Below are positions 7,577-38,253 of a stretch of DNA of 64,000 nt, one piece after another; the stretch's first letter is position 1; the number at the start of each line of letters is the position of its first letter. This DNA is from Neoscytalidium dimidiatum (Eukaryota; Ascomycota; Dothideomycetes; Botryosphaeriales; Botryosphaeriaceae), in the NCBI GenBank assembly GCA_037367355.1, contig CM074697.1, forward strand, positions 2,852,001 to 2,916,000, in the 5' to 3' direction. The position numbers and the translations under genes were made by a program. The notes under the pieces were generated by a model, which was given only the letters and a program-made list of their open reading frames with translations, was not told the DNA's origin and searched no databases.

Positions 7577-7670
7577 GGCCTAATGGTCTAGAGGTATGAT
7601 TCCTGCTTTGGGAAAGCTTCTAGGAGTCCTAAAATGCAGGAGGTCCCGCGTTCGAATCGCGGTTAGGCCC
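7577..7670 (+). tRNA. tRNA-Pro (anticodon TGG) with a 22-base anticodon-loop intron
   Basis: Exons are 7577-7612 and 7635-7670, which join to 72 nt. The acceptor stem GGCCTAA pairs with TTAGGCC at 7663-7669. The D-arm is the proline-type TGGTCTAGAGGTATGA, which serves as box A. The anticodon stem CCTGC pairs with GCAGG around loop TTTGGG. The canonical intron sits one base 3' of the anticodon, at 7613-7634. The T-loop box B GTTCGAATC is intact. A run of T at 7677-7682 is a normal Pol III terminator. This gene has only the standard intron and is the reference for the unusual proline tRNAs further along. Confidence 0.95.
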
Positions 7671-8656
7671 CAAGAAATTTTTTGATGATTTTTAAGCTGT
7701 TTCTTTTGCCCTTGCTTGGATTTCAAGGCAGCATGCGATTCTGCATGCGAACTTACGTATCTCGCAATTGCATAAGGCATATTGGCCCAGGGACTTGAAA
7801 ATTTCGACTCAGATGCGCCTCCCCGCAGGTAGCCCCTGAACTCCATGGTGTTGGGAACCACGTCCGTGTAGCTTATACAGAAACTTCTAAGAAAGTTGGG
7901 ACATGAATTCTGCCTTGTTGGCTTGTTTTTGCAACATTATGACGCCGGGTACAGCAAGCATTACAGTTACAAAAACCCTTTCCGGGTCGGCTAAAGTGGA
8001 TTTAAGTGTTTCGTGTAATAAGTAAAATATACACTTAGATAACCACTCCCACTATCCAAGAGTAGCTGTTCTCGCTGCTTTAATACGATTGGAACTGATT
8101 TCGAAAGCTAATACTCCGGGATCAAAAAAAGGTTCATGATATCAAGCGTGGTTTGCGCTACTCTCTGTCTTTTTAGGAAAAGGGGAAAGAAAATTGCACA
8201 TACTCAAAGCAGCTTGACGAAAGCTAATATCTTATGCTAACTTATTTGGCTCAATATGCAAAAGGGAAGAGCGAAACCTATCTACTTATTCAGAAAGACG
8301 TGTGTGTATGATACGATTTCGAACGATCTCTAGTGCACACCGAAGCTATCACTCTCCTAGCCGGTTCAATGGAGTATACTGCAAAACACTCTATGAGCTG
8401 CGCAGGAGGTTCAAGTGGACAAATTCTGGATTGGCCGTCTTCTGGTTGTCCTACGTTGACTTGATTACAGGACCCTGGAGATAATTCACGGACAACCACG
8501 CGTATTCAGAATGAGGATCCAAGAATATTATCTAGAATGCATTCCCCCTGGCCTCGAAACAACGAAAGAGATGAGTTTGCCCCGCAGTGCAACGATAAAA
8601 GTCCCGAAACCCCTCCATGCACGTGTTATTTCCCTGCCAACCTAAATCGAAACCTA
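7671..8656. other. Intergenic, no gene seen
   Basis: AT-rich stretch with no credible ORF, between the tRNA gene and the 3' end of the minus-strand UFL1-like gene. Confidence 0.5.
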
Positions 8657-16708: not shown

Positions 16709-20004
<3,296 letters not shown>

Positions 20005-21522: not shown

Positions 21523-21704
21523 GGGCTCAGCCGGGGATCTGATTCAACCGTTAGTTGACTTGTTATTCGTGTAAGGATCGAACTTGAGAGAAACTTACCG
21601 AACCCGGGGCCTGTCACATTTCAAGCGTTGTGTGCTTTCAAGACCTCTAAAGAAGCCTGGGAACACTACCCGAAGCGACAATCATACCACTAGACCACTG
21701 AGCC
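21523..21704 (-). tRNA. tRNA-Pro (anticodon CGG) with an anticodon-loop intron and a second, spliceosomal-like intron in the T-loop
   Basis: On the minus strand the exons are 21704-21669, 21618-21599 and 21538-21523, which join to 72 nt. The acceptor GGCTCAG pairs perfectly with CTGAGCC. The anticodon stem GTCGC/GTGAC encloses TTCGGG. Intron 1 (21619-21668, 50 nt) is at the canonical site. Intron 2 (21539-21598, 60 nt) lies between positions 57 and 58 of the T-loop. It begins GTAAGT, has ACTAACG as a branch site and ends CAG; its removal restores TTCGATC and the stem CCGGG/CCCGG. The split box B is replaced by GTTCGATCC inside intron 2. A T-rich tract downstream (TTCTTTTTG) can terminate Pol III. 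Exons are identical to the copy at 36661, while introns differ. Whether intron 2 is really spliced is inference. Confidence 0.85.
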
Positions 21705-36340: not shown

Positions 36341-36660
36341 ATCACCGATGCGTTCATCGTGAATCTCCATTGGCGAAGGTAACCAGACTGGACATTGGGC
36401 CGCTTACAGACGAATACGAAGCTCAAATCGTCCCTGGGCGAGCCGATTCACCTTTGGACATACGCTGAAGTATCCGACTACCCAAATAAAAACTTCTGCA
36501 TTTTTACATCTGTAACTGCCTCTGAGCATTACTTTTGGTTAGGTGTTGCGCTACCGTTCTCGCTCAAACGCGAATTTCGGTAGCTGAATATTAACTCTCA
36601 ACGCCACCCGTTCCCCAACGAATAAGCCACTCCGGATACAATTCTGGACTCTGCTTCAAT

Positions 36661-36839
36661 GGCTCAGTGGTCTAGTGGTATGATTGTCGCTTCGGGTAGT
36701 GTTCCCAGACTTCTTTAGAGGTCTTGAAAGCACATAACGCTTGAAATGTGACAGGCCCCGGGTTCGGTAAGTTTCCAAGTTCGATCCTTACACGAATAAT
36801 AAATCAACTAACGGTTGAATCAGATCCCCGGCTGAGCCC
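36661..36839 (+). tRNA. tRNA-Pro (anticodon CGG), second copy, with anticodon-loop intron and T-loop spliceosomal-like intron
   Basis: Exons 36661-36696, 36747-36766 and 36824-36839 join to the same 72-nt tRNA as the copy at 21523, with no exon difference. Intron 1 is 36697-36746 (50 nt). Intron 2 is 36767-36823 (57 nt) with GTAAGT at its start, CTAAC as branch site and CAG at its end, again between T-loop positions 57 and 58. Inside intron 2, GTTCGATCC at 36779-36787 supplies a box-B-like sequence that the exons lack before splicing. A run of eight T (36847-36854) terminates Pol III. Compared with the other copy, intron 1 has two transitions and intron 2 has a 3-base indel plus transitions, while exons and splice signals are unchanged. 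Flanking bases upstream are also similar, so the two are segmental duplicates. Confidence 0.85.
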
Positions 36840-38111
36840 TAGAATAATTTTTTTTGCCAATTTTGTTTTGCCAATGTTCTTGGATTGCAGAGTGGACCCT
36901 TTCTCTCACCTTGAAAATTCTGATATTGGAGACAGCGGTTTCGGTATTTCCTCGGAACCAATGCAGAAACCTACGAGAGCCAAACTAATGCTGTCTGTTT
37001 CTTTGAGCGTATATGGGCTTAACATGAAAAGATTTCCAAAACTTAAATCCAAGGTGAATGGATGATGGTCCGGAGCGTGTAATGGAGTTGTGTTCTAAAC
37101 TATCGCCAAGGCAAGGAATTGTGCTATCTGGAGCTGAAACAGTTATCAAGACGTAAATATTAAGATTAATAGTGATATTTCCGTTCGGATGATTGCTCCT
37201 AATGCCCATGCGGTGGTAGGTCGATATTAGATTCTATCTCGCGGCGTCAAGTTGCTCTATAGGCTGCACCGCCACATTTTATCCCCGACCACGCACGATA
37301 GTAGACTTGGTATAGAGGCAGTCTATATAATACGGTGTCCTTCCGCACCTCTCTCGTGGCCATGTACGTGTTGACTCGTTCCGAGCCCTAACGAAAATCT
37401 ACCAAGACACTGTTAAATTTACAAATAGAAACGACTTTAATAGGCTATATCGTATAGGACGTCTTCGATTATAATGCTATAACTACCATGCTTCCGGACA
37501 GCGTGTAGGTGGGGGACCTCTAGATAGTCCCGCAGCGGAACGTCTTATAGAAATATAAAAGGCAGTAATCGGACGTCGCGAATAAAACGAAGGCTCACGC
37601 ACGTTCTCTAGCTTAATAAATATTATATTATAGTTATAATAACATTGGTAGTTTTAGTAAGTAACATCGTAAACGTTTTAGACCCAATCGACCACTCCGC
37701 TAGAGATGAGGATCCAGACTCCTAGCAGTTAAAAGCTAGAAAATAAACTCGAACCTAACTGCATTAACGAGTAGCAATAGAACAGCTAGGTTTTCTTAAG
37801 CAAAATAGCTGTTCTAAGTTAGAAATCGGGGTTCGACTTAACAACCTCGACCACCTAACTATGGTCTCGATTCTTAGATATAAAACTTATATATATGCTA
37901 CCCATCGGTTTAAACTACTCTTTACCCCGTCCTTAATTATATAATATTGATGTATAGATCGCTATTATATAGTATATCTCGTTTGAGCTACTAAGGCTTA
38001 GCTGATCCCACTATTTGCAATAGGCCTTATGACAAAATGATACGCTGCCTCCGCGGTTCTCAAAGATTAAAAAGATACATTCCTTACAAGGACACAGCAA
38101 AAGAATAGAAG
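36840..38111. other. AT-rich, probably RIP-degraded sequence
   Basis: From about 37250 to 38100 the sequence is strongly AT-rich with many TA steps and no ORF above the reporting size, unlike the GC-rich gene blocks. This fits an old repeat eroded by repeat-induced point mutation. No element type can be recognised. Confidence 0.55.
37132..37208. repeat. Palindromic repeat element, copy F
   Basis: The interior ACGTAAATATTAAGATTAAT is followed by ATATTTCCGTTCGGATGATT. The arms are eroded by apparent C-to-T and G-to-A changes, but the order matches copy D. It is followed by ATGCCCATG, the family's downstream flank. Confidence 0.78.
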
Positions 38112-38253
38112 GGGTCTTGCCGCGGATCGAACGCGGGGCCTCTCGCAAGCAACTCAGGGTGTGCCCTAAGCGAGAATCTGTATTATATTAGACAGCTGTA
38201 CCATTTAAATGTGTCCGTTGATATTACTCACCATACCACTAGACCACAAGACC
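38112..38253 (-). tRNA. tRNA-Pro (anticodon AGG) with anticodon-loop intron and a spliceosomal-like intron in the D-arm
   Basis: Minus-strand exons 38253-38232, 38177-38164 and 38147-38112 join to 72 nt. The acceptor GGTCTTG pairs with CAAGACC. The anticodon stem CTCGC/GCGAG holds loop TTAGGG-T, and the T-arm CCGCG-TTCGATC-CGCGG is perfect and uninterrupted. The canonical intron is 38148-38163 (16 nt). A second insert at 38178-38231 (54 nt) interrupts the 3' strand of the D-stem after GGTATG. It starts GTGAGT, contains CTAAT 11 bases before its end as a branch site, and ends ACAG. Taking it out restores the standard proline D-arm TGGTCTAGTGGTATGATT. Box A and box B are both intact. TTTT just downstream (38098-38102 region) can terminate Pol III. 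Confidence 0.85.

Follow-up and report, generated by a model that had tools for sequence, protein, structure and literature searches.

The T-loop of the tRNA-Pro(CGG) gene at 36661-36839 of the window (the whole stretch of 64,000 nucleotides that we analysed) carries an insert. Sequence comparison makes it very probable that this is a GT-AG intron of the spliceosomal type and that the Pol III tRNA gene which it interrupts is functional; the nuclear genome has at least 14 inserts of this kind. A spliceosomal intron in a tRNA gene had been proposed from the sequence of this one locus, and the comparative evidence speaks for it. We base our reading on the anatomy of the genes, on exons and splice signals that are conserved together with intron bodies that have mostly diverged, on a paralogue with an empty site, and on the absence of insert-free Pro-CGG, Pro-AGG and initiator-Met genes from the results of our searches. 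These searches covered the genome of one species (43.76 Mb in 40 contigs).

Proline tRNA genes of the window

Four tRNA-Pro genes with three anticodons (TGG on the plus strand, CGG on the minus strand, CGG on the plus strand and AGG on the minus strand) lie within 31 kb of the window (7577-38253). Inserts were found in three of the four tRNA-Pro genes. The features of the window to which we refer are the following.

7577..7671, plus strand: tRNA-Pro(TGG), whose sole intron is an anticodon intron; the one proline gene found in the window that lacks an insert
18150-18236, 18265-18317, 18501-18553, 18706-18759 and 19315-19363, plus strand: five mRNA introns of the ATP sulfurylase/APS kinase gene
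21523..21704, minus strand: tRNA-Pro(CGG) copy B, from the genome-wide DNA search; exons the same as in copy A
21539..21598, minus strand: T-loop insert of copy B, 60 nt, GTAAGT...CTAAC...CAG, containing GTTCGATCC
36661..36839, plus strand: tRNA-Pro(CGG) copy A, exons 36661-36696, 36747-36766 and 36824-36839
36697..36746, plus strand: anticodon-loop intron of copy A, 50 nt with a one-base ambiguity of the boundary, from ARAGORN after removal of the T-loop insert
36767..36823, plus strand: T-loop insert of copy A at 57/58, 57 nt, GTAAGT...CTAAC...CAG
36779..36787, plus strand: B-box-like GTTCGATCC in the T-loop insert of copy A, beginning at insert position 13
38112..38253, minus strand: tRNA-Pro(AGG), copy 1 of 3, from the D-arm pattern search; it has an anticodon intron too
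38178..38231, minus strand: D-arm insert (about 23/24) of Pro(AGG) copy 1, 54 nt, GTGAGT...CTAAT...CAG

The sequence-only reading had described the 57-nt insert at 36767-36823 with its GTAAGT, its CTAAC 12 nt before the end and its final CAG, and had claimed that a 72-nt proline tRNA is left when both inserts of the gene are taken out. The coordinates and motifs are exact (the branch A lies 12 nt upstream of the final base), and the resulting 72-nt tRNA has 7 of 7 acceptor pairs and 5 of 5 T-stem pairs. The insert sits in the T-loop at position 57/58 of the standard tRNA numbering. We compared all stretches of the same length in the window, on both strands, with a strict pattern (GTAAGT/CTAAC/CAG) and a loose one (GTRNGT/CTRAY/YAG). 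Among the 57-nt stretches (n = 127,886) the insert of copy A was the sole match to the strict as well as to the loose pattern, and among the 60-nt stretches (n = 127,880) the sole match was the insert of copy B.

The same reading had missed copy B (21704-21523, minus strand) and the D-arm insert of the Pro(AGG) gene (38231-38178, minus strand). Copies A and B are identical at 72 of 72 exon positions. Their anticodon introns differ by 2 substitutions, their T-loop inserts by 2 substitutions and one 3-nt indel, and their flanks are strongly diverged except for about 40 nt upstream. None of the differences touches GTAAGT, the GTTCGATCC block, CTAAC or CAG. It had also been said that an intact single-intron Pro(CGG) gene elsewhere, together with missing junction reads, would make this one a pseudogene. 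We looked for such a gene and found none: the exon pattern, searched genome-wide with at most 3 mismatches, occurs at two places, both of which carry the insert.

A search for proline-type D-arms that asked for no splice signal gave 9 matches, and we see D-arm inserts in all three of the Pro(AGG) genes found. Copies 2 and 3 lie on contig C11, and both have inserts of the form GTAAGT..CTAAC..TAG. The junction of the Pro(AGG) inserts reads GGTATG^...^ATTCTCGC, and the mature copies are identical, provided that the anticodon intron is cut directly after position 37. No insert-free Pro(AGG) gene was found; a search for the contiguous anticodon arm with up to 3 mismatches gave 0 matches.

Insert-bearing genes in the nuclear genome

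In total, we found at least 14 insert-bearing nuclear tRNA genes with four kinds of cloverleaf site: the D-arm at about 23/24 (Pro-AGG), the D-arm at 24/25 (initiator Met), about 30/31 (Phe) and the T-loop at 57/58 (Pro-CGG, Ala-CGC, Gly-TCC and Asp-GTC). None of the 14 inserts sits at the canonical position 37/38. They are 51-64 nt long (n = 14); 13 of them have GT...AG with CTAAC or CTAAT 10-14 nt before the end, and 12 end in YAG, the inserts of the Ala and Gly genes ending in AAG. Similar signals are seen in the ATP sulfurylase/APS kinase gene, whose five mRNA introns (49-87 nt) are supported by an open spliced frame and by the Pfam families PF01747, PF01583 and PF14306. With the inserts removed, ARAGORN accepts both Phe genes and all 12 non-Phe genes; the latter give tRNAs of 72 nt with all five T-stem pairs, and 11 of the 12 have all seven acceptor pairs. 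An ordinary anticodon intron is also present in 10 of the 14 genes, the exceptions being the four initiator-Met genes.

The initiator-Met genes were found by searching for their 5' exon with at most 3 mismatches and with no splice signal asked. This gave four places with inserts at all four, located in the D-arm at 24/25 (G.AGCG^...^CGCCGGG). They are marked as initiators by the T-loop ATCGAAA, by the pairing of A1 with U72 and by an anticodon stem of GGG/CCC. Three of the inserts have the form GT..CTAAC or CTAAT..AG, and one reads GCGAGA..CTACT..TAG. The mature sequences of copies 1 and 2 are identical. A further copy (L099) is altered on both sides of the acceptor stem (AGCTGAA/TTCAGCT vs AGCTGCG/CGCAGCT), which is fully paired, and also on both sides of the T-stem, again with pairing kept. 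The fourth gene (L100; G000:C12:1574833, plus strand) has a GC...AG insert, CTACT at 12 nt and 6 of 7 acceptor pairs; it may have a GC-AG intron, or it may be a copy that is decaying in its tRNA structure and its splice signals together. No insert-free initiator-Met gene was found in the 5' exon searches; pattern searches of this kind would be escaped by an initiator or proline gene with the searched exon interrupted or strongly changed. Compared between sister genes, the insert bodies of Pro(AGG) and of initiator Met are about as alike as shuffled sequences (z -2.0 to 2.1).

The genes for tRNA-Ala(CGC), tRNA-Gly(TCC) and tRNA-Asp(GTC) have their inserts in the T-loop at 57/58. The first came from the proline D-arm search without splice signals, the second was found by searching GGTTCRGTAAGTTTC, and the third by a search that also required GTTCRA. 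For tRNA-Phe(GAA), inserts were found in 2 of the 3 genes seen, in the anticodon stem at about 30/31 (GTCAGT..CTAAC..CAG and GTAAGC..CTAAC..CAG). Both insert-bearing Phe genes are located in sequence flanking other loci and were resolved by the ARAGORN scan, which requires splice signals. In the third Phe gene (L039) the site is exactly empty and reads CCAG-ACTGAAG. The likeness between the two Phe inserts exceeds chance, with a score that was reached by 3 of 500 shuffles.

One may ask whether the working tRNAs are made from other genes, those with inserts being silent copies or pseudogenes. According to PMC4090602, an insertion in the D- or T-arm of a eukaryotic tRNA gene mostly affects a single member of a large synonymous set, and such genes are regarded as pseudogenes; furthermore, the initiator copy L100 looks decayed and an insert-free tRNA-Phe gene does exist. 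Nevertheless, we consider this explanation very unlikely. The searches made have given no insert-free gene for Pro-CGG, Pro-AGG or initiator Met, the changes between the Pro-CGG copies are confined to inserts and flanks while the exons are identical, the double changes in L099 are paired, and even diverged inserts keep their splice signals. A lone pseudogene, in particular, is a poor explanation because inserts of the same kind are present in all the copies found of Pro(AGG) (3/3) and initiator Met (4/4).

Alternatively, the inserts could be non-canonical introns which are cut by the tRNA endonuclease at bulge-helix-bulge (BHB) motifs, as in archaea, nucleomorphs and Cyanidioschyzon. The likeness lies in introns of the D- and T-arm and in several introns per gene, as described for archaea, nucleomorphs and red algae in parts of PMC4090602, where archaeal introns at D-arm and T-arm positions are given. 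Our test covered the central helix of the motif, that is, the start of the intron against the exon after the intron. The 4-bp central helix was formed in none of the 12 non-Phe genes, with two registers tried for each and 3 of 4 pairs at best; on the other hand, one Phe copy forms it in 2 of 4 registers, and its sister reaches 3 of 4 pairs. Since this explanation also leaves the GT-AG ends and the CTAAC at a fixed distance (13 of the 14 inserts) without a cause, we regard it as highly improbable, and removal by the spliceosome remains our preferred reading.

Internal promoter and proposed maturation

Read directly, an A box lies upstream of every insert. The D-arm and Phe inserts come after the A box and do not interrupt the B box. 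The T-loop inserts split the B box of the exon (GGTTCG^ATCC). The core GTTCGA is present in all five T-loop inserts, in none of the seven D-arm inserts and in neither of the two Phe inserts, and GTTCGANNC is found in four of the five T-loop inserts. The core GTTCGA starts at intron position 13 (16 in copy B). Dinucleotide shuffling of a given insert yields this core in 1-5% of cases; four of the five T-loop inserts have a best match to the full 11-nt B-box consensus that 6-19% of shuffles equal, and for Asp the figure is 0.5%. Thus, for each insert taken singly, the argument for a substitute B box is weak, and it would draw on the recurrence at one place in the Pro, Ala and Gly genes, which were not selected for GTTCGA (the Asp gene was).

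We see that the likeness between T-loop inserts falls mostly within the B-box block. Between the B box and the branch site, 14-68% of shuffles score as well in five of the six insert pairs, the Gly/Asp pair being at 2.2%. The idea that the T-loop inserts are copies of one element was rejected, as their likeness is mostly confined to that block. It is scarcely conceivable that the T-loop insert owes its retention to a promoter role, or is a mobile insertion, and has its GT-AG form as a by-product. Such an origin would suit the GTTCGA core at nearly the same place in 5 of 5 inserts, but the D-arm and Phe inserts have these splice signals too and interrupt no B box, the T-loop inserts show little likeness in the stretch from B box to branch site, and an insert that is retained would open the T-loop.

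Runs of at least four T follow all 12 non-Phe genes. Behind the two insert-bearing Phe genes the first T run comes after 42-49 nt, and in the insert-free Phe gene after 40 nt. Our main reading is weakened by these distant T runs, by L100 (GC, CTACT and an acceptor with 6/7 pairs), by the AAG ends of the Ala and Gly inserts, by the weakness of the B-box argument for single inserts and by the one Phe copy able to form the central helix of a BHB.

If the inserts are spliceosomal introns, the maturation of these tRNAs could proceed as follows. Pol III would use the A box together with an uninterrupted B box; in genes whose exon B box is split by the intron, the B box inside the intron would substitute for it. 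The spliceosome would then remove the GT-AG intron in the nucleus, after which the tRNA body would fold and the ends would be trimmed. The tRNA endonuclease measures the folded tRNA body and therefore should act second, after the spliceosome, removing the anticodon intron in 10 of the 14 genes. In summary, a single tRNA precursor appears to be processed by two splicing machines, and working tRNAs probably cannot be made in this cell without the machinery that splices mRNA. It is likely that the nuclear tRNA genes of this lineage regularly include spliceosomal introns, that the spliceosome is obligatory for the initiator, Pro(AGG) and Pro(CGG) tRNAs, that translation initiation depends on mRNA-type splicing and that the introns which split a B box carry one of their own, to which the promoter function has moved. 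If this is true, translation is tied to the spliceosome, as all the initiator-tRNA genes found have such an intron, and the splicing of uncapped Pol III transcripts is not peculiar to U6. It would also suggest that an internal promoter can survive interruption by relocating into the intron.

U6 snRNA had been named as the nearest known case, and the likeness extends further than was claimed, because the T-loop inserts also hold a B-box core. The U6 genes of Schizosaccharomyces and some other fungi resemble our genes in having a spliceosomal intron, in our case a very probable one, in a Pol III transcript; going by the title of Frendewey 1990, the S. pombe U6 intron reportedly has a B-box match. 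In contrast, the host RNA here is a tRNA, many genes and four kinds of site are affected, often in addition to an anticodon intron, and the U6 gene of this genome is intronless. The latter (L065; G000:C5:1524025-1524126, plus strand) has the B-box-like CGTTCGAATCCC just behind a T10 run. Spliceosomal introns also occur in ascomycete rDNA, which is likewise a non-mRNA gene outside the reach of Pol II; however, the transcript there is a Pol I rRNA and here a Pol III tRNA, and rDNA has no internal promoter to repair. The canonical eukaryotic tRNA intron (37/38, SEN endonuclease) is represented by the anticodon introns of 10 of the 14 genes, whereas the inserts lie elsewhere and have GT-AG and branch signals.

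An mRNA-type intron within a Pol III transcript is described for S. pombe U6 snRNA in passages of PMC10484740. For tRNA, parts of PMC4090602 hold that nuclear introns sit at 37/38 and are cut by the tRNA endonuclease, parts of PMC8450103 state that eukaryotic tRNA genes are limited to one intron, and these two papers and PMC4033280 give archaea, nucleomorphs and red algae as the groups with non-canonical tRNA introns. In the main texts of PMC4090602, PMC4033280 and PMC8450103 the stem "spliceosom" is absent. The remark that no described example in tRNA was known agrees with our own search: among the matches listed in the open-licence PMC literature there was no report of spliceosomal introns in tRNA genes, and the exact phrase gave 0 matches.

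Search scope and further observations

We have seen 14 insert-bearing and 42 insert-free nuclear tRNA genes, a tally that is no census, as the family search favours insert-free genes and the pattern searches favour insert-bearing ones; the locus L045 is excluded from it. This locus is tRNA-like and insert-free, with an unclear anticodon. The Rfam cmscan of the window and of 36500-37000 gave no match. In the whole-genome tRNA family search there were 63 matches over the cut-off, 24 of them on contig C40 and 39 nuclear, all 39 insert-free; a rerun added one sub-threshold match, whose location identifies it as the 3' portion of an initiator-Met gene. The splice-aware ARAGORN scan of 335 kb made 80 junction-spanning calls vs 34 in shifted decoys, a comparison that is no statistic, since many of the decoy calls hit those same genes. 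In the motif searches of the genome itself, tRNA genes made up 4 of 16 and 4 of 17 matches, and the remaining ones were judged by eye to be coding or other sequence. Motif scans of other genome contigs (1 match) and of viral contigs (0 and 10 matches) gave 11 matches, all judged from their context to be due to chance.

tRNA finders miss or misname genes of this kind. For example, ARAGORN reported Pro-AGG as "Asp", an initiator Met as "SeC" and two Phe genes as "Arg".

Contig G000:C40 looks mitochondrial. It has 307,956 bases, and its tRNA matches recur about 176,850 bases apart; it is probably a partly doubled circle. A tRNA-Ser(GCT) gene (L121; G000:C10:2020477-2020653, minus strand) has an anticodon intron of 76 nt vs 22 nt in its siblings L113 and L118. 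Finally, the organism is probably a member of Botryosphaeriaceae, since the Coq4 protein of the window shares 92% identity with a cluster headed by Lasiodiplodia hormozganensis and 88% with one headed by Diplodia intermedia.
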